Source: Desulfobacteraceae bacterium (lineage in GTDB: Bacteria; Desulfobacterota; Desulfobacteria; Desulfobacterales; Desulfobacteraceae). Taken from it: DNA of 64,000 bases. Numbering within the stretch: position 1 is the first letter of the stretch; every line of letters starts with the position of its first letter. The notes under the pieces are model-generated. The model saw nothing but the letters and a program-made list of their open reading frames with translations, made no database searches and was not told where the DNA came from. The stretch lies in assembly GCA_016743945.1 (NCBI GenBank), contig JADGFI010000003.1, positions 186,001 through 250,000 on the forward strand. The letters run 5' to 3'. Made by a program: the position numbers and the translations under genes. Positions 26,162 to 64,000 of the stretch are shown piece by piece.

Positions 26162-26394
26162 TCCATTAAAATTTTGAAACCTGTCAAACCGCTTAAGAAG
26201 CGCTTCTATAGCCTAATTGTAGCTTTACGTAGCCCATTAAATTTTTATTGTCAACAATAAAAAAGCCTGGCTTACACAATATAACAGCAAAAAACCTGTC
26301 CAGACACGCGGATACAAAGCCGTAATGGTTTAACCATCAAAATCAGCATTTTAATTTGTTCAGGGTCTACCTTTACATAACGTTTACATTTGCA

Positions 26395-26429
26395 TTGACA
26401 TTACCATCAAAATTTGTCACACTGACAAA
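26395..26429 (+). promoter_or_regulatory. Candidate promoter/LexA operator of the lexA-imuB-dnaE2 cassette
   Basis: TTGACA (26395-26400) plus 17 nt to CACACT; perfect inverted repeat TTTGTC-ACACT-GACAAA at 26413-26429 overlapping the -10 region. Confidence 0.5.
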
Positions 26430-26456: not shown

Positions 26457-27101
26457 ATGAGACCAACCCTTACAGAAAAGCAACAAAAACTCTTTGATTA
26501 TCTAAGACAGGCGCTCGCAGGAACCGGCACGACCCCCAGCCTCAGGACGGCAGCCGCAGACCTTGCTATCAGCCATGCTGCAGTGGCTCAGACATTGAAG
26601 ACCCTGGAAGAAAAAAACTATATTCGCCGCCCGGGACGGTACAGCCGAACCATTCATGTCGTTGACCCTTCAGGAGATCTGGATACAAACCTTCGCCAAA
26701 AACAAATTCCCGTCATCGGAAATATCACCGCTGGCCTGCCCATCTATGCCCACCAGGAATGGGAGGGCAGCATCCTGGTAGATGCCGCCCTATATCCCGG
26801 TCAGGACCTGTTTGCCCTTAAAATCCAGGGCCATTCCATGAAGGATGCCGGCATCCTGGACCAGGATATCGCCATCTGCCGCCCCCGGCAATATGCCCAT
26901 AACAAGGAAATCGTCGTGGCCTTGATCCATAACGAAGAAGCCACGGTCAAGCGATTTTTTCTCCATCCCGGGTGTATCGAGCTTCGTCCGGAAAATCCGG
27001 ATTTTTCGCCCCAGACCTACGAATTTGACGAAGTGCTGATCCAGGGAAAGGTTATCGGCATCATCCGCACCCCCCATTCCATGGATCCCGGGCAGGAATA
27101 A
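26457..27101 (+). CDS. lexA: LexA repressor (S24 family)
   Basis: N-terminal wHTH; cleavage-site AG in GNITAGLPIYA; catalytic GHSMKDAGI and EEATVKRFF. Confidence 0.93.
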   Translation: MRPTLTEKQQKLFDYLRQALAGTGTTPSLRTAAADLAISHAAVAQTLKTLEEKNYIRRPGRYSRTIHVVDPSGDLDTNLRQKQIPVIGNITAGLPIYAHQEWEGSILVDAALYPGQDLFALKIQGHSMKDAGILDQDIAICRPRQYAHNKEIVVALIHNEEATVKRFFLHPGCIELRPENPDFSPQTYEFDEVLIQGKVIGIIRTPHSMDPGQE

Positions 27102-27107
27102 TCCCCC

Positions 27108-28292
27108 ATGGAACGGTCCATCATCCACCTGAACATTGCTGATTTTGCAGCATCCGTAGAAATAAATCTTCTGCCCTCACTTAAAGGGTATCCCATTATC
27201 ATCGCCCCCACGGGCACTCCTCGGGCCGTGGTCTACGACATGAATGACCAGGCCTATAAGGAAGGCATCCGCAAAGGCATGCCCCTCGCCCGGGTCAGCC
27301 GAATCAACCGGAAAATCAAAATCATATCCCCCCGATTCAACCGATATGAGCAGATTATGCGGGAAATCTTCAAAACAAGCCTTGCCTATACCCCGGCCAT
27401 TGAATTTGGGCCGTGGGACGGTCATTTCTTTCTGGATATCACCGGAACCCACAGGCTTTTAGGGCCGCCAACGGACGTGGCCTTCCGGCTAAAACGCGAA
27501 ATAAAAAAAAAGCTGGGTCTGGATCCCATCTGGTCAGTGGCCACCAATAAGCTGGTGGCCAAGGTGGCCACCCGAATGGTCAAACCCAGGGGCGAATATA
27601 TTGTTGAGCCAGGAAAAGAAGAGGCCTTTCTTGAACCGCTTCCCATCACCCTTCTCCCTGGCCTGTCCGAAAAAGAGGTCCTTCAGCTGAGAACCTTCAA
27701 CCTCTCGTATATTTTCCAGATACGATCATTGAGCCTTGCACAGCTTTTTGTCCCCTTTAACCACAGGGCCAAGCGCATCCATGATCTTGTCCGGGGTATA
27801 GACGTAACCCCTGTCACCCTTCCAAAAAAGGATGCGCCCCTCCATGGGGACCATGAATTTACCAATGATACCAATGATGCCAACCAATTAAAAAATGCGC
27901 TCTACCTTTTGGTTGAAACCCTGTGCACCTCCCTGCGCAGGCAAGACAGGGTCGCAAGCCAGCTCTGTCTGACCCTCTCCTATTCTGACGGCGGTCAGCA
28001 GACAATCACGGGGAAACTCTGCCCACCCACGGCCAATGAAATGGTCATGTTCACAAAGGCCACGCCCCTCTTATTCAAGGCATGGCGCCGGAGAATCCGC
28101 ATCCGCCATATCCGCCTGACCGGAAAAAAAAGGCTCAGGCCCCAAACCCAGGCCACCTTGTTTGACGAGACCCCCAAGGCGGACAACCAGGAAAAAATTT
28201 TTATGGCGGTGGACGCAATTCGGAAAAAATTTGGCGCCCATGCCGTTGCCACCGGACGCACCCTGGCAACCCCTGCGACCCAAAACTGTTAG
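27108..28292 (+). CDS. imuB: Y-family DNA polymerase-like protein lacking catalytic carboxylates (ImuB-like)
   Basis: IIHLNIADFAASVEI where DinB/UmuC has HxDMDxFFAxVE; WDGHFFLDITGTHRLLG where SIDEAYLDVTG is expected; C-terminal QATLFDE clamp-motif-like and AVDAIRKKFGAHAVATGRTL. Confidence 0.85.
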   Translation: MERSIIHLNIADFAASVEINLLPSLKGYPIIIAPTGTPRAVVYDMNDQAYKEGIRKGMPLARVSRINRKIKIISPRFNRYEQIMREIFKTSLAYTPAIEFGPWDGHFFLDITGTHRLLGPPTDVAFRLKREIKKKLGLDPIWSVATNKLVAKVATRMVKPRGEYIVEPGKEEAFLEPLPITLLPGLSEKEVLQLRTFNLSYIFQIRSLSLAQLFVPFNHRAKRIHDLVRGIDVTPVTLPKKDAPLHGDHEFTNDTNDANQLKNALYLLVETLCTSLRRQDRVASQLCLTLSYSDGGQQTITGKLCPPTANEMVMFTKATPLLFKAWRRRIRIRHIRLTGKKRLRPQTQATLFDETPKADNQEKIFMAVDAIRKKFGAHAVATGRTLATPATQNC

Positions 28293-28299
28293 CCGCACC

Positions 28300-31200
28300 A
28301 TGATCCCCTTGACCCTTCGGTCCCATTACTCCCTGATGTGGGGAACGGCACCGGTAAAACAACTTTGCCGCCAGGCAAAGCAACTTGGATACTCTAAAAT
28401 TGCCCTGACAGACACGGACAATCTCTACGGCATGTGGCCCTTTATTGCCGCCTGCAAAGAAGCGGGTATTACGCCGATTATCGGAGCAGAGATCACCGAC
28501 CCAGTCCTGCCCCTAAGAGCCATCTGCCTGGTTAAAAATAGGGAAGGATACCAGAATCTTACCCGATTGCTGACCGGGCGCCACACAAATAAAAACTTTT
28601 CCCTGGCCCGCTGTCTGCCTCCCCTTGGCAAGGGCTTGGTAATACTCACCCAATCTCCTGCCCTTCTAACCGCCTGGCAGGACCAAGGCCTGGACCTGGG
28701 TGCAGCCCTCCCCAGACACCCCCTTTCCTTGAATCACCCCCTATGCCGGGCGGCCAGGGAACGAGGCATTCCCCTTGTGGCCACCCCGGGCAATTTTTTC
28801 CTGAATCCCGAAGATATACACACCCATGCCATGCGCAGGGCCATTGACAAGAACACCTGCCCCAGCCGCCTGGGTGTAGCTGACCTGGCCCCTTCCACCG
28901 CATTTTTGGCATCTCCCAACCATTATCGCCAAAGGTTTCAACTGCTCCCCCAGGCCATTAAAAATACCTGGATGCTGGCGGAAAAACTGACCTTCAGGGG
29001 TCCTGATTTTGGAACGGTCATGCCGTTGTTCAGGGGAAAAACTGCCCAGGACGCCTGTATCCTGTTGCGGAAAAAAGCCTTTGCCGGCGCCTCAAGACGC
29101 TATGGACAGCCCCTTCCCGGCGAAGTGATCACCCGAATCGAGCATGAGCTGACGATCATTTCACAGAAAAATTTTTGCGGATACTTTCTGGTGGTCCAGG
29201 ATATTGTGCAACGGGCCACAAGGATCTGTGGCCGGGGGTCCGGGGCAGCTTCCATTGTGGCCTATTGCCTGGGGATCACAAATGTCTGTCCCATAAAATA
29301 CAATCTCTATTTTGAGCGATTTTTAAACCCGGGCCGGAAGGACCCACCGGATATTGATGTTGATTTTGCCTGGGATGAGCGGGATGGTGTTTTAAACTGG
29401 GTTCTGTCAAAATTCAAAGGTCATGCCGCCATGGTATCCAGCCATATCCTCTTTCAACCCCGCATGGCAGTCCGGGAGGTGGCAAAGGTCTATGGGCTGC
29501 CGGAAAAGGAAACACAAAAAATCATAAGCCGGCTGCCCTGGTTCTGGAAAATCGATGAAGCAGCCGAAGATCTTCTGAGCCGAATCCGGAAAAAACCGGA
29601 ATTTTACCCTCTTGATTTCCCCAAGCCCTGGCCTGAAATCATGGCCCATGCCCAGGCCATCATCGGGACCCCGAGATACCTGTCGGTTCACCCCGGCGGC
29701 ATTGTCATCACCCCGAATCCCATTAACACCTATGTACCGATAGAAACGGCCCCCAAGGGCATCCCCCTGATCCAGTGGGAAAAAAATGGCGCAGAGACAG
29801 CAGGCCTCGTTAAAATCGACCTTCTGGGGAACAGAAGCCTGGGGGTCATCCGGGACTGCATTGACACCATTGAATCTGCCCCGGGCAACACTGATTTTTC
29901 CAGGCGAGACCCGGAAGATGACCCGGCAACCCAGCAACAGGTAGCCCTGGGAAACACCATGGGCTGCTTTTATATTGAAAGCCCTGCCATGCGCCTGCTC
30001 CAGAAAAAATCCAAGGTCGGAGACTTTTCCCATGTGGTCATTCACACCAGCATTATCCGGCCGGCAGCCAACGAGTTCATTAACGCCTATCTCAAACGCC
30101 TGCACACAGGCGAATGGGACCCCATCCACCCCCTCATGGAAGAGATCCTGGAAGAAACCTTTGGCATCATGGTCTTCCAGGAAGATGTGTCCCGAGTGGC
30201 GGTTCGCCTGGCCGGATTCACCCATGCCCAGGCAGACGACTTAAGAAAAATCATGTCAAAAAAAAACAAGACCCTGGCCCTTAGCGATTATCATACCCGC
30301 TTTGGGAAAGGGGCCGCTCAAAAAGGCGTCGGCAAAGCCGATATCCAGAAAATCTGGGACATGATCATCAGCTTTTCAGGATACTCTTTTTGCAAGCCCC
30401 ACTCCGCCTCCTATACCCGGGTTTCCTTCCAGGCCGCCTATTTAAAAACCCATTACCCGGCCGAATTCATGGCTGCCGTCATCAGCAACCAGGGGGGATT
30501 TTACACCCCCTTTGCCTATGTGTCCGAGGCCCGGCGCATGGGGGTCAAAATACTTGCGCCGGATATTCTTGAAAGCCAAATCAAATGGAAGGGCAAAGGC
30601 GCCCGGCTCAGGGTCGGGTTCATGACCGTTAAACATCTGTCGACTGCCACCATGGCGTCCATTGTAAAGGAACGAAACATTTCACCTTTCCTAGGTCTTG
30701 AAAATTTTTTCAACCGGGTTAGCCCCCGGGAGGAGGAAATCCGAGCGCTTGTCCACAGCGGCTGCCTGGACAGGTTCAAAAAAAACATCCCCCGAAGTGG
30801 CCTCTTGTGGGCATTTGCCGCATGGAAAAAACAAAAGAACAGCCCCAAAAAAGATCCCGGCCTCTTTGACGCGCTCCAGGATCGCGCCCGGAAACCCATC
30901 CCCATCCCACAACTTCCCCCAGATAACCCAACAAATCTTTTAAGACAAGAATTCTCCGTGCTGGGGTTCTTGTGTGCCTGCCACCCCATCCTATTGTTCT
31001 CCCGCCCCATCAAAGAAGCAAAAACGGTAAAGGCAAGGGATCTTTCCCGGCATATCGGCCAAAGGGTTAAATTTGCAGGGTGGCTGATCACGGGAAAAGT
31101 GGTCAACACTAAAAAGGGAGAGCCCATGAAATTTCTTACCTTTGAGGATGAAACCGGGATGTTGGAAACCGTCTTTTTTCCCAGGGCCTATGCAAAATTC

Positions 31201-31323
31201 TGTCACACTCTGGAGTATGGAAAGCCCTATTTTCTTTTTGGCAAACTTGAATCTGACTTTGGAGCCATCACCATGACCGTTGAAACCACCCAACAGGTTC
31301 GGCACAAAAACACAAAAGTGTAA
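28300..31323 (+). CDS. dnaE2: DNA polymerase III alpha-type error-prone polymerase (DnaE2)
   Basis: PHP domain LRSHYSLMWGTAPVKQL...ALTDTDNLYGMWPF, palm PPDIDVDFAWDERD and GLVKIDLLGNRSLGVI, C-terminal OB-fold; third gene of the lexA-imuB cassette. Confidence 0.9.
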   Translation: MIPLTLRSHYSLMWGTAPVKQLCRQAKQLGYSKIALTDTDNLYGMWPFIAACKEAGITPIIGAEITDPVLPLRAICLVKNREGYQNLTRLLTGRHTNKNFSLARCLPPLGKGLVILTQSPALLTAWQDQGLDLGAALPRHPLSLNHPLCRAARERGIPLVATPGNFFLNPEDIHTHAMRRAIDKNTCPSRLGVADLAPSTAFLASPNHYRQRFQLLPQAIKNTWMLAEKLTFRGPDFGTVMPLFRGKTAQDACILLRKKAFAGASRRYGQPLPGEVITRIEHELTIISQKNFCGYFLVVQDIVQRATRICGRGSGAASIVAYCLGITNVCPIKYNLYFERFLNPGRKDPPDIDVDFAWDERDGVLNWVLSKFKGHAAMVSSHILFQPRMAVREVAKVYGLPEKETQKIISRLPWFWKIDEAAEDLLSRIRKKPEFYPLDFPKPWPEIMAHAQAIIGTPRYLSVHPGGIVITPNPINTYVPIETAPKGIPLIQWEKNGAETAGLVKIDLLGNRSLGVIRDCIDTIESAPGNTDFSRRDPEDDPATQQQVALGNTMGCFYIESPAMRLLQKKSKVGDFSHVVIHTSIIRPAANEFINAYLKRLHTGEWDPIHPLMEEILEETFGIMVFQEDVSRVAVRLAGFTHAQADDLRKIMSKKNKTLALSDYHTRFGKGAAQKGVGKADIQKIWDMIISFSGYSFCKPHSASYTRVSFQAAYLKTHYPAEFMAAVISNQGGFYTPFAYVSEARRMGVKILAPDILESQIKWKGKGARLRVGFMTVKHLSTATMASIVKERNISPFLGLENFFNRVSPREEEIRALVHSGCLDRFKKNIPRSGLLWAFAAWKKQKNSPKKDPGLFDALQDRARKPIPIPQLPPDNPTNLLRQEFSVLGFLCACHPILLFSRPIKEAKTVKARDLSRHIGQRVKFAGWLITGKVVNTKKGEPMKFLTFEDETGMLETVFFPRAYAKFCHTLEYGKPYFLFGKLESDFGAITMTVETTQQVRHKNTKV

Positions 31324-37097: not shown

Positions 37098-38522
37098 TTA
37101 AATTTCTTGGTTGGCAATTTTTTCCAACAAGGATTCCACCAGAACAGCAAACTCGGGTATGGCCTTTTTCCCCTTGATAATTCTTTTACCGCTGACAGAC
37201 TTGAAAAACCGGGTGCAGATGTTGCGCTGGCCTGGGGAAAGTGCTGCCGAAATGCCCATTTTGGAATTGCCAGCCTTTGGGTCCGACCCGAGGGATGTAA
37301 GATCCCGGCGGCCATGGGCCCGATTCATCATATGGGCATAATAGATCAGGGCCCGGTCCATGAGAACGTAGAGAAATTGGAGGTTTTCATTGGGCCCCAC
37401 CTGGAGGCGATCCCCTCCAAGCTGGAGGGTCTGACCGGTTTTTTGAGCGATTTTTTTGCCGCTCCAAATGGCAGACCCGGCCCCCAATAAACCTCCGATG
37501 GCGGTGAACACCCCAAATGTCAGACCGCCTGCCGCCGTGTCCATGACAAGTCCCATGGTGCCGCCCAGAACAGCCCCGGCTGCGGCCAGTTGTTTTTGGG
37601 TCAATCCCAGCAGTTCCCAGGTCTGTTTTGCGAACAAATCATGTTGGAGAAGGGAATAGTCGGGCAGGGGATAGTCATATAGATTGTGCTTAAACAGGGA
37701 CTTAATCTGTGTGAACATCTCTTGTTCAATCCCCCGGACCCCTTTTTGAAAAGAAAGATTGAGTCGTTCCCTGGCCCGGACCGGGTCGGAGGTTAAGGAA
37801 AGACGTTCAGACACAGAAAACCCGAGACTTTTTTCCAGGGCAAGGGTGATATAGGCACAGGCCAGGCGATTTCGTTTTTTCCATTCCCCCTTAAAGGCCA
37901 AAATCACCTTTGAAAGGGAGTCTTCCCATTCCTGATCAATGGATTTCAGGCTTTCCAGCATGCGGATGCGCTCCTTGAAATCAGCCGTATTGGAATTAAA
38001 CACCCGGATGGAATTAAAATATTTGCGGAACTCCAGTTTCCACTCCCGGGTATAATCCTTGTCCATTTGCTTGGAATTAATGATGGCCATGCGGGGCCTG
38101 CCCGTGAGCCTCAATATTTCCATTTCAGCAATATCGTCGTCCCGGACCGGCCTTGCGCCGTTCACCACATAAATAATACCCGCCCCCCTGGCAACCGGTG
38201 CCATGAGTTCACACTCATCGGCAAAAAAAGGATCATCATGAAAGGTTGCAATAAAATGTTCCAGGATCTTTTCCGAATCACCCTGGGCCCGAAACCAGGC
38301 CAGGGTCTGCCGGGGCGCCTGGAACCCGGGGGTATCCACGAACCGGATAATTTTTTTCTTGTCAATTTCAACGGTATAGGTCCGGGAAACCGTGGTCTCG
38401 CCAGGCACCGGGCTGACCCGGATCTGATCGTCCTCGGCAAGGGTGGAAACCACGGAGGACTTGCCTTCATTGGGATGGCCCAGAACCGCAAATTCCGGAA
38501 TATTAAGTGGCGACGTTCTCAT
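37098..38522 (-). CDS. GTPase with DUF3482 C-terminal region
   Basis: G1 GHPNEGKSS, G3 DTPGF, later Ala/Gly-rich membrane-type segment AAAGAVLGGTMGLVMDTAAGG. Confidence 0.85.
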   Translation of the reverse strand: MRTSPLNIPEFAVLGHPNEGKSSVVSTLAEDDQIRVSPVPGETTVSRTYTVEIDKKKIIRFVDTPGFQAPRQTLAWFRAQGDSEKILEHFIATFHDDPFFADECELMAPVARGAGIIYVVNGARPVRDDDIAEMEILRLTGRPRMAIINSKQMDKDYTREWKLEFRKYFNSIRVFNSNTADFKERIRMLESLKSIDQEWEDSLSKVILAFKGEWKKRNRLACAYITLALEKSLGFSVSERLSLTSDPVRARERLNLSFQKGVRGIEQEMFTQIKSLFKHNLYDYPLPDYSLLQHDLFAKQTWELLGLTQKQLAAAGAVLGGTMGLVMDTAAGGLTFGVFTAIGGLLGAGSAIWSGKKIAQKTGQTLQLGGDRLQVGPNENLQFLYVLMDRALIYYAHMMNRAHGRRDLTSLGSDPKAGNSKMGISAALSPGQRNICTRFFKSVSGKRIIKGKKAIPEFAVLVESLLEKIANQEI

Positions 38523-40181
38523 TTATACACCCTTTCCACGATACACCCTTTCCAGCAAGATATCGGGGTTGCCCAATTGATGGATGGCCCGTTTCCAGAC
38601 CTTAAAATTTATGTCCTCCCCGTCCACGACCCAAGGGTCCGCCCCAGGGGTCTGGGTCAAAAGGATATACATAGGCCTGTCCGTAAAAATTTGAGTTTTA
38701 AGCTGAACAAAATAGTGAAGAAGTCCCCGGATGGGGGGCTGCCACGCTTCCTGGAGCAGGATAACCGGATCTTTCGACGCCTTGGCCAGGGAGAAAAGCA
38801 ACTCTCGGTCCTGTGAATAATCAAAGGAGAGGGAAATCATTGAGCGAACACCCAGGAACAAATTTTGCCGGACAGCCTCTTGGACAGCCCCGAAATTTTC
38901 CTGGCCATATACGCTCCCCGACACCAGAACCACGGCATGGGAACTGTTTGATTGCGTCTGTTTTGCCGAAGGCATTTCAGGCCCCGGCCCACCCGATCCC
39001 AACGAATCAGGCTCAAGGAAATCAGCACCAGATGGATCCGCCAGAAAATTATTTTGTCGGCCGGCAAGGTTTACCGGCGTCTCATCAAACCGGATATCCA
39101 TTATGGGTGACTTCATTCGGACCAGCAGTTTTTTAAACCGGGGTCTTTCAAAATCAAATTGGCCCACTGCTCGTCGCTGGGCCATGAAACTTACCATGAT
39201 CAGCATAAGGCGCGGCAGAACCGCATAGAAAAATATGCCCAAGCAAAGAAATGGCCACCAGGATACCAGATCCTTTGTGGCAAGTGTGGAAATTCCCTCC
39301 TTTAACAGGATCCTTGACCCTTCTATTTGTTCAAGGCTTGGATGGGCAAAGCTTCCCGGCACAAACCAGGACCAGGGAAAAGAGATCACAGACAATGCCC
39401 CATGGATACGGTCACTGGCCGCAATAAGGGTGGATTGCCAGCCAAAGGCCATGTCACTGACCGCCACCCGAAACAGGGTCCCCCCCAGGGCGCCTGCGGA
39501 AAAGGCGGCTGCGAAAAAAGAAGAGAGCACAAAAAAGGGCCAGAAAAAAACAAGCCGGTATTCCCTGTTTCTCATCCGGATCAGGGAGGCGGTATATTCA
39601 ATGGTCGCAATTCCCTTCTCCCCCAGGGGCCGGCCTATTTTTTTTAAAATCCCGGGAAACCCCTTAAAGAAAAAGACAGACAACAGGGTATGGACAGTGG
39701 AATAATGGGGTTCTCCATTTCCCGTCCTTCCCTTAAAAAACCGACCCGCCAGCACAAACAAGGTGAGAAAAAACAGCAGGACATGGAAAAAAATAAACAC
39801 CGCAAAGAAAATCGTCACATTTATGGGCCGGGTCCCGTGGTAGGCCAGAAAGGAATAGGCCATGGAGATGCCGGATAAAACCCCTGTGATCACCAGCACA
39901 TAAACAATCCAGCGGTACAGGGAGGAAAACACCCTTCCCGGCAGCAGGGCACTTGGCCCTTCACCGGCCTCGTGAAAAAATACCAGCCGCCGGTATTCAA
40001 GCCATGAAAAAAGCAGGGCGGGCGCCTCCATATCCCCTGCATCCAGGCCCGTCTGATCCAGCTGGGTGAAAATTTCCCGGTCCCTTGCAAGGGTCTTTTC
40101 TTTCTCTTCCACGGAATCCCTTTGGTCGTCCAGGCTTAAAAGGTAATCCAGGTCAATGATATCCTTCAAATAAATGGTCAT
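38523..40181 (-). CDS. DUF2868 domain-containing membrane protein
   Basis: Multiple TM segments, immediately upstream of and abutting the DUF3482 GTPase; DUF2868-type layout. Confidence 0.75.
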   Translation of the reverse strand: MTIYLKDIIDLDYLLSLDDQRDSVEEKEKTLARDREIFTQLDQTGLDAGDMEAPALLFSWLEYRRLVFFHEAGEGPSALLPGRVFSSLYRWIVYVLVITGVLSGISMAYSFLAYHGTRPINVTIFFAVFIFFHVLLFFLTLFVLAGRFFKGRTGNGEPHYSTVHTLLSVFFFKGFPGILKKIGRPLGEKGIATIEYTASLIRMRNREYRLVFFWPFFVLSSFFAAAFSAGALGGTLFRVAVSDMAFGWQSTLIAASDRIHGALSVISFPWSWFVPGSFAHPSLEQIEGSRILLKEGISTLATKDLVSWWPFLCLGIFFYAVLPRLMLIMVSFMAQRRAVGQFDFERPRFKKLLVRMKSPIMDIRFDETPVNLAGRQNNFLADPSGADFLEPDSLGSGGPGPEMPSAKQTQSNSSHAVVLVSGSVYGQENFGAVQEAVRQNLFLGVRSMISLSFDYSQDRELLFSLAKASKDPVILLQEAWQPPIRGLLHYFVQLKTQIFTDRPMYILLTQTPGADPWVVDGEDINFKVWKRAIHQLGNPDILLERVYRGKGV

Positions 40182-61352: not shown

Positions 61353-64000
61353 CTAAAGAACCGCCTTTAGGTACCGACCTGTATGGCTTTTTAAAACCTT
61401 GGCAACCTGTTCCGGCGGTCCGGCTGCAATGATCTCCCCACCGCTGCTGCCGCCTTCGGGGCCCAGATCAATCACCCAGTCACAGGTCTTGATCACATCC
61501 AGGTTGTGCTCGATGATGATCACGGTATTTCCAGCATCTGTCAGGCGCTGGAGCACGGTTAACAACATTTTCACGTCCTGGAAGTGAAGGCCTGTGGTGG
61601 GTTCATCCAGAATATACAGGGTTTCCCCGGTACCCCGTTTGGCCAGTTCCCGGGCCAATTTAATGCGCTGGGCCTCTCCACCGGACAGGGTGGTGGCGGC
61701 CTGACCCAGTTTGATATAGCCAAGTCCCACATCCATGAGGGTGTCCAGAATATGGACAATCTTCGGATGGGTTTCAAACAATTGTCTGGCCTGGACAACC
61801 GATAAGTCCAGAACATCGGCAATGGAATGGTCTTTATAAGCGATCTCCAGGGTGGAACGGTTAAACCGTTTACCGGCGCAGACCTCACAGGGAACAAACA
61901 CATCGGCCAGAAAATGCATTTCCACCTTGATATACCCGTCGCCTCTGCAGGCTTCGCATCGCCCCCCCTTTACATTAAAGGAATACCGCCCTTTTTTGTA
62001 TCCCCTGGCCTTGGATTCGGGCAGCATGGCAAAAAAGTCCCGAACATGGTCAAAGACCTTGGTGTAGGTGGCAGGGTTGCTCCTTGGGGTACGGCCAATG
62101 GGTTTTTGATCAATATTGATGATTTTATCGATATGTTCAAGTCCGATGATTTTTTCATGGGCGCCCACACTCAGCTGGGAGTTATGGAGGGCCACGGACA
62201 GGGCCGGATAGAGAATCTGGTTGATCAGGGTGGATTTGCCGGCCCCGGAAACTCCTGTGACGGCCACCAGCAGTCCAATGGGAATTTTAGCACTAACCTC
62301 TTTGAGATTATTTTCCGATGCCCTGACAATGGAGATCCAGTGTTTGCCTTTATCGGCATGGCGTCTTCTTTTTTTGGGGACATCAATCTTTTCTTTGCCC
62401 GTGAGAAATTTCCCCGTGATGGAGGCGGGATTGGCCTTGATTTGATCAGGGGTTCCCTGGGCCACGATCTGGCCTCCCAAATGTCCTGCCCCGGGACCGA
62501 TATCCACGATCCAATCCGCTTTTTCCATGGTTTCCTGGTCATGTTCCACAATGATCAGGGTATTGCCGATGTCCCGCAAATGGTGGAGGGTAGATAAAAG
62601 CTTAAGATTGTCCCGCTGGTGGAGGCCGATGGAGGGTTCATCCAGGATATACAACACCCCGGTGAGTTCACTGCCCACCTGGGATGCCAAGCGGATGCGC
62701 TGGGATTCTCCCCCGGACAGGGTGGGACCGCTGCGGTCCAGGGAAAGATAATCCAGGCCCACGTTAACCAGGAACCCAAGCCGGTCGGAGATCTCCTTGA
62801 GAAGTTCTTCGGCAATAAGTTTTTGATTGCCCATTAGATCCAGGGACCCCACAAATTCATGGGCCTCCCGAACCGTCATCCCGGTAAGATCAATAATGGA
62901 GCGTTCCCGGATCAAAACGTGGAGCACCTCTTCTTTAAGCCGTTTGCCATCACAGCTGGTACAGGTACTGGACGTCATAAAAGCGGCATAATATTTTTTT
63001 TGGCTTTCGGACTGGGTGTTCCGATACCGCCGCATCAGGGTGTGGACCAGCCCTTCATGGGTCCGGGTAATCTCTGCCTGGATTTTGGCTGAATTCCAGT
63101 TAACCGTCATCTCCTTGCTCTTGGAGCCAAAGAGCAGTAATTGCTGCTGCTCTTTGGGCAAATCCTGCCAGGGCGTATCAAAATCAATGCCCCATTGGTC
63201 TTCCATGGCCAAAAGCTGGCCCATGCCCCAGGAATTGTCATTCTGATACCTCGGATTTTTAAGAAAATAATTTTTCCAGGGAAGCACAGCCCCCTGGCGG
63301 ATGCTTAAGCTTTTGTCCGGCACCACCTTGTCCGGATCTATGGCCAAAAGGGTCCCGATACCGTTGCAGTCCGGGCACATGCCCAAAGGGGAATTAAAGG
63401 AAAAAATCTGGGGAATGAGCTCTGGATAGGCAATGCCGCAGCAGGACCGGGCTTCACTCATTTTCAAATCTTCCCTTCCCTCCATGTGAACAATAATCTG
63501 ACCATGGCCCAGTTTAAGGGCGGTTTCCACCGAATCGGTAAGGCGTTTTTCAAGTGCGGTATCCCGGCGTATCACCAACCGGTCCACCACCACCTCAATG
63601 TGATGTTTCTTGTTCCGGGCCAGGGTCTGGACATTTTCAAGGGCCTGGACCACTCCGTCCACCCGGACCCGGGCGTACCCGTCTTGTTTCAACTCGTCCA
63701 GCAGTTCTCTGTGCTCCCCCTTCCGATTTTCCACAATGGGGGCCAGAATCAATATTTTAGAGGCGGCGGGCAAAGCATAAATCTGGGAAACCATGGACTG
63801 GGCATGACCCCGGCCCACTTTTTCCCCGCATTTACAACAGTATTGGGTGCCCACCCGGGCAAACAATACCCTCAGATAATCATAGATCTCCGTGATGGTT
63901 CCCACGGTGGACCTGGGATTTTTACTGGCAGCCTTCTGCTCAATGGCAATGGTGGGGGACAGGCCCCGGATGGTATCGTACTTGGGTTTTTCCATCTGTC
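61353..64000 (-). CDS. uvrA: Excinuclease ABC subunit UvrA (N-terminus beyond the window)
   Basis: YCCKCGEKVGRG, TLSGGESQRIRLASQVGS, GVSGAGKSTLINQILYPAL, CEACRGDGYIKVEMHFL, TLSGGEAQRIKLARELAKR; open at the window end. Confidence 0.97.
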   Translation of the reverse strand, partial: QMEKPKYDTIRGLSPTIAIEQKAASKNPRSTVGTITEIYDYLRVLFARVGTQYCCKCGEKVGRGHAQSMVSQIYALPAASKILILAPIVENRKGEHRELLDELKQDGYARVRVDGVVQALENVQTLARNKKHHIEVVVDRLVIRRDTALEKRLTDSVETALKLGHGQIIVHMEGREDLKMSEARSCCGIAYPELIPQIFSFNSPLGMCPDCNGIGTLLAIDPDKVVPDKSLSIRQGAVLPWKNYFLKNPRYQNDNSWGMGQLLAMEDQWGIDFDTPWQDLPKEQQQLLLFGSKSKEMTVNWNSAKIQAEITRTHEGLVHTLMRRYRNTQSESQKKYYAAFMTSSTCTSCDGKRLKEEVLHVLIRERSIIDLTGMTVREAHEFVGSLDLMGNQKLIAEELLKEISDRLGFLVNVGLDYLSLDRSGPTLSGGESQRIRLASQVGSELTGVLYILDEPSIGLHQRDNLKLLSTLHHLRDIGNTLIIVEHDQETMEKADWIVDIGPGAGHLGGQIVAQGTPDQIKANPASITGKFLTGKEKIDVPKKRRRHADKGKHWISIVRASENNLKEVSAKIPIGLLVAVTGVSGAGKSTLINQILYPALSVALHNSQLSVGAHEKIIGLEHIDKIINIDQKPIGRTPRSNPATYTKVFDHVRDFFAMLPESKARGYKKGRYSFNVKGGRCEACRGDGYIKVEMHFLADVFVPCEVCAGKRFNRSTLEIAYKDHSIADVLDLSVVQARQLFETHPKIVHILDTLMDVGLGYIKLGQAATTLSGGEAQRIKLARELAKRGTGETLYILDEPTTGLHFQDVKMLLTVLQRLTDAGNTVIIIEHNLDVIKTCDWVIDLGPEGGSSGGEIIAAGPPEQVAKVLKSHTGRYLKAVL

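Follow-up and report, generated by a model that had tools for sequence, protein, structure and literature searches.

The 64,000-nt window analysed here (Desulfobacteraceae bacterium, assembly GCA_016743945.1, contig JADGFI010000003.1, positions 186,001 to 250,000) carries a three-gene cassette that probably represents an autoregulated SOS mutasome operon of the DnaE2B-iPolY-RecA type, in which an inactive Y-family polymerase (iPolY) would serve as the scaffold for the clamp, RecA and DnaE2B. This explanation is preferred because of the conservation of the cassette (order and phylum), the motif statistics, the match to the RecA N-terminal (RecA-NT) motif, the Y-family fold, the DnaE and Y-family trees, the lack of ImuA, ImuB and ImuB-C, the purifying selection, the conserved promoter element and the existence of a published system of the same composition. 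The operon is real and conserved, and probably a working mutasome of an already predicted kind. Its composition has been published and the pairing of a dead helper with an error-prone polymerase has been described before; new here is the partnership of the cassette with a DUF72 gene in relatives. A DnaE2 together with a dead PolY and without ImuA is so far a predicted complex, and the lineage offers many natural replicates of it among anaerobic bacteria, each with a single LexA, iPolY and DnaE2.

The cassette is arranged in the order lexA - iPolY - dnaE2, with all window ORFs concerned on the + strand and intergenic gaps of 6 and 7 bp. The SOS repressor gene lexA (26457..27101) leads the operon, followed by the gene for the 394-aa iPolY (27108..28292) and by dnaE2, assigned to group B by tree, which encodes 1007 aa from an ATG start codon at 28300 (28300..31323). 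The coordinates and spacing of three tightly packed genes, as well as the position of the operon's own LexA as the first gene, were already given in the initial annotation and are confirmed. The source contig measures 333 kb and belongs to an assembly of 6.8 Mb with a completeness of 98.3% and a contamination of 7.2%, whose nearest named relatives are Desulfobacteraceae, e.g. a Desulfobacula sp. MAG and Desulfospira joergensenii. A PADLOC run gave no match.

The middle protein matches the Pfam domains IMS and IMS_C, and its AlphaFold model (pLDDT 80.5) matches DinB and Dpo4 structures; as the pTM is 0.54, the domain placement in this model is uncertain. Its catalytic motifs are replaced: HLNIADF (27126..27146, + strand) stands in place of HxDMDxF and WDGHFFLD (27414..27437, + strand) in place of SIDEAYLD. 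Across the 93-member iPolY clade, the first catalytic Asp has given way to Asn (90/92) and the Asp-Glu pair to Gly-His in every member (93/93); the dNTP-binding Tyr is changed to Glu or Asp (86/93) and the dNTP-binding Arg to Tyr or Phe (93/93). Six active Y-family proteins, used as controls, retain D, D, D-E, Y and R in these columns. These column counts bear out the proposed loss of the catalytic carboxylates. The iPolY gene diverges from same-genus copies with a dN of ~0.19-0.23 against a dS of 0.67-0.86 (dN/dS ~0.25-0.29) and is therefore under purifying selection. Judged from the aligned columns, the loss of the active-site residues is a conserved state, which is due neither to chance nor to decay. 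It is very unlikely that iPolY still polymerises via a rebuilt active site, for instance one using the Asp of 'DGH'. This residue can be aligned to the second catalytic Asp via a one-residue gap, and the PolB2 polymerase was earlier wrongly called dead (PMC11791011). However, it is an Asp in only 63/93 relatives and thus gives no rescued catalytic site, and near-fixed residues stand in for the first Asp and the catalytic Glu as well as for the Tyr and Arg that bind the dNTP.

The Y-family tree separates three ImuB proteins from all other sequences (100/100, with long branches) and gives the window protein a separate clade (87/100) that adjoins active DinB and is distinct from it (100/100). This clade also takes in members from complete and near-complete genomes of a second family. 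The only other Y-family gene of the genome encodes an active DinB in which the DMD and DE motifs are intact. Assignment of iPolY itself to active DinB (Pol IV) was rejected, since the catalytic Asp and the Asp-Glu pair are replaced; the NCBIfam DinB models match it far below their cut-offs. A Pol V-like protein of the UmuC/UvrX type was likewise rejected, as the UmuC model reaches 32.5 bits against a cut-off of 431, and a UmuD/YolD partner gene was not found in the operon. Based on tree position and domain searches, iPolY is best described as a DinB-related inactive PolY that is not ImuB-like by descent. The initial label 'ImuB-like' does not hold in this respect, with the protein in a separate clade of the Y-family tree and no match to ImuB-C (DUF6504) in the genome; the accompanying suggestion of a lineage distinct from textbook ImuB agrees with the tree. 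The reported absence of imuA extends from the operon to the assembly, in which a genome search with the ImuA model matched only RecA and RadA, far below the cut-off. A genuine ImuB-DnaE2 cassette from which imuA was lost would explain a dead Y-family gene beside dnaE and lexA by the logic of imuA-imuB-dnaE2. It is nevertheless highly improbable, given that the window protein falls outside the ImuB clade (the 100/100 split, with the caveat of long branches), that the ImuB-C domain is missing, that DnaE lies outside the ImuAB-linked group and that an imuA relic was not found in the assembly. Of the mutasome logic originally proposed, the combination of a dead Y-family protein, a DnaE2-type polymerase and LexA stands; the two proteins themselves fall outside ImuB and the ImuAB-linked DnaE2 group.

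Further support for the DnaE2B-iPolY-RecA explanation comes from the C-terminal part of iPolY. The clamp-binding motif QATLF (residues 348-352; 28149..28163, + strand), noted from the outset, is present and retains its Q in 91/93 and its F in 87/93 relatives. It is followed by a tail that contains AIRKKFGAHAVATGR, with a Gly kept in 91 of the 93 clade members, and that carries a motif resembling the RecA-NT oligomerisation motif (residues 358-381; 28179..28250, + strand). Comparison of a profile of 91 tails with 20 RecA N-termini gave an hhalign probability of 91.7 and a score of 25.1, which was reached by 0/300 column-shuffled controls (shuffle maximum 17.1). In searches with the tail HMM against single RecA sequences, a weaker test than the profile-profile comparison, the organism's own RecA did not rise above the shuffles. 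The putative RecA-NT resemblance is thus visible profile against profile only. UmuC/UvrX-like ends have been described as homologous to the RecA N-terminal oligomerisation motif (Timinskas and Venclovas). The UmuC/UvrX-like tail that had been recognised before is indeed a shared tail, and the description was incomplete in that the resemblance is to the RecA-NT motif. Clamp and RecA-like motifs without catalysis would fit the role of a competitor no less than that of a scaffold, and iPolY might mainly be a regulator that restrains RecA or DnaE2 or displaces DinB from the clamp. Such a role is considered unlikely, because most of the relatives examined encode iPolY in one operon with an active DnaE2, and in view of the precedent of ImuB, which has a positive role (PMC6511836).

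The third gene encodes a DnaE2 with the Pfam domains PHP, DNA_pol3_alpha (palm), fingers, HHH_6 (HhH) and OB, in which a C-terminal tau-binding domain was not seen by Pfam. The palm motifs PDIDVDF (29347..29367, + strand) and KIDLLG (29812..29829, + strand) are both present, as initially annotated, and the metal ligands of the PHP domain are degraded relative to the organism's own DnaE1. The DnaE phylogeny, an unrooted tree with few references, unites the window protein with DinB-adjacent DnaE2 from Bacteroidota plasmids and separates this group from DnaE1 and the ImuAB-linked DnaE2A (100/99). The phylogenetic check proposed for this gene hence places its product outside DnaE2A.

LexA matches TIGR00498 (168.3 bits, cut-off 110.95), Peptidase_S24 and LexA_DNA_bind, and by eye its Ala-Gly cleavage site and the Ser and Lys residues are kept. 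A second LexA was not found in the assembly; since the other S24-peptidase match is a phage-type repressor, the one in the cassette is apparently the only LexA. Upstream of lexA, candidate operator/promoter direct repeats with a period of 11-12 bp, TTTACATA, TTTACATT and TTGACATT, occupy 26372..26402 (+ strand) and are conserved in the family. The element TTTACATT-N3-ATTGACATT overlies the cassette promoter, with the -35 hexamer TTGACA within its second half and overlapped by the final repeat TTGACATT. TACATT and TTGACATT are invariant among 12 aligned family members, and the strict direct-repeat pattern is found 5' of lexA in 47/78 cassettes. The striking conservation of the tandem repeats TTTACAT/TTTACATT/TTGACATT at this position is apparent across the family. 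LexA may bind the direct-repeat element. The exact pattern has one occurrence genome-wide, at the cassette, and no copy of the candidate operator was seen 5' of recA or other SOS genes. Therefore, the regulon may be small, and the direct repeat was rejected as a genome-wide LexA box. One copy with two mismatches sits 5' of a short ORF whose product looks membrane-protein-like by eye. A perfect palindrome, TTTGTCA-CAC-TGACAAA (26413..26429, + strand, 0 mismatches), is a possible second operator, and 12 sites with up to three mismatches occur in the window against 4.9 expected. It is a weak operator candidate, as its conservation stops at the closest relatives, and TTTGTCA-N3-TGACAAA was also rejected as a genome-wide LexA box because the other near-perfect copies examined sit inside ORFs.

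Taken as a DnaE2B-iPolY-RecA system, the operon would be repressed by its own LexA until, upon DNA damage, RecA filaments trigger LexA self-cleavage and, with it, expression of all three genes. Unable to polymerise, the dead Y-family protein would then act as a scaffold that holds the clamp via QATLF and RecA through its C-terminal RecA-NT motif, RecA thereby replacing ImuA. It would also hold the active, error-prone DnaE2B, which would copy past the lesion. Both the formation of this complex and lesion bypass by it are inferred, as is the binding of LexA to the promoter element.

DnaE2B-iPolY-RecA has been predicted to be a mutasome in genomes without ImuA or ImuB, and one of its forms, whose iPolY falls in the G. 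bemidjiensis DinB2 group, is widely spread (PMC12926913). The complexes are supported by AlphaFold (PMC12926913, Timinskas et al. 2026), and lexA is often part of the operon in such systems (PMC6511836, 2019). The window cassette resembles this gbDinB2-like form in its inactive Y-family protein with clamp and RecA-NT motifs, its DnaE2 outside group A, the lack of ImuA, ImuB and ImuB-C, and lexA in the operon. All features examined are found in it, namely the dead site, the RecA-NT motif, QxxLF, a group B DnaE2 and the absence of ImuA, ImuB and ImuB-C. Its assignment as gbDinB2-like is derived from these features and from the DnaE and Y-family trees, with the type sequence ACH37529.1 outside the comparison. 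The composition is equal, and most relatives of the window cassette add DUF72. The ImuA-ImuB-DnaE2 mutasome shares the LexA-linked operon, the dead Y-family subunit and DnaE2, whereas the window has neither ImuA nor ImuB-C and belongs to another Y-family clade and another DnaE2 group. The Streptomyces scDinB2-DnaE2B system, likened here by description, has the same predicted composition and is published as a different iPolY group (PMC12926913); for dnaE2 of S. coelicolor, which has a similar iPolY system, the lack of a mutagenesis phenotype is cited in PMC3919608. This result speaks against the preferred explanation, as do the negative tail HMM search and the missing operator copies at recA and other SOS genes. 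The lexA-imuB-C-polY operon of Geobacter sulfurreducens, also from the former Deltaproteobacteria, is likewise lexA-led and damage-inducible with a Y-family gene, but its PolY is described as active and is paired with a standalone ImuB-C and no DnaE2 (PMC6511836). The PolB2 mutasome loci are comparable to the window relatives in the enrichment of DUF72 near a damage-response polymerase and differ in their B-family polymerase with iRadA, which is unrelated to DnaE2 (PMC11791011).

Orthologous cassettes were detected in 22/57 relatives searched, and a scan of named genomes, some of them overlapping, returned 80 loci. The cassette comes with a DUF72 (PF01904) gene in 48/58 named loci with enough flank, in 45 of these 48 in the order lexA-DUF72-iPolY-dnaE2. 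Examples of the gene between lexA and the inactive polymerase are L055:2315-3157 and the copy in Desulfospira joergensenii DSM 10085. Nine named loci lack it between lexA and iPolY, as does the window, whose genome contains no DUF72 gene anywhere. The part that is missing in comparison to close relatives is therefore the DUF72 gene and not imuA. Among eleven genomes with a DUF72-less cassette, eight are without any DUF72, and of the remaining three, two have copies at other sites and the third retains a fragment; six genomes with the four-gene form each carry exactly one DUF72, the cassette copy, which in one case has an in-frame stop. This in-frame TAA, in a same-genus relative, gives the impression of a gene being lost. 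The neighbours of the window in the trees are a relative that has DUF72 and another that lacks it, a placement with weak support. The loss of DUF72 here and the stop codon in the same-genus relative would also fit a decaying remnant in which the Y-family gene is the next to go. This is extremely improbable, as the dN of iPolY is about a quarter of its dS, the reading frames are open at full length and the replacement residues are invariant.

The cassette DUF72 protein resembles TM1631 (TIM barrel, E 9e-40). Members of the family have been observed near polB2 in archaea and bacteria, and a structural relationship to UV-damage endonuclease has been reported (PMC11791011). DUF72 is not mentioned in the main text of PMC12926913, and a literature search, which did not cover Erill et al. 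2006 on cassette dispersal, found no link between DUF72 and DnaE2; a match to 'DUF72 plus dnaE2' in the DNA-damage literature was rejected as a word-match artefact of DUF721 (Rv0004). As a tentative extension of the DnaE2B-iPolY-RecA explanation, doubtful at present, the ancestral arrangement may have been lexA-DUF72-iPolY-dnaE2, with DUF72 as a lesion-binding or lesion-incising fourth component that a few lineages lost and with the direct repeats as an undescribed LexA operator. If DUF72 were a working part, a widespread family of unknown function would gain a role, and lesion recognition would be tied to error-prone synthesis.

The four-gene cassette lexA-DUF72-iPolY-dnaE2 is also carried by a plasmid of Desulfosarcina ovata (NZ_AP021877.1; 136 kb, mobilizable), where it lies near an IS200/IS605 transposase gene, which indicates that the cassette can move. 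In one relative, DUF72 and iPolY are separated by ~2.4 kb containing, by sequence, a universal-stress/CBS-domain-like gene. Other families of the phylum have a second tier of dead Y-family proteins encoded next to lexA and dnaE; most of these have PGHxxxD, and they are 29-35% identical to the window protein. Elsewhere in the window, a uvrA-like gene is located on the opposite strand at 61353-63995, ~30 kb downstream of the cassette, and two adjoining genes of unknown function at 37101-40181, encoding a DUF3482 GTPase-like and a DUF2868 protein, likely form a pair.
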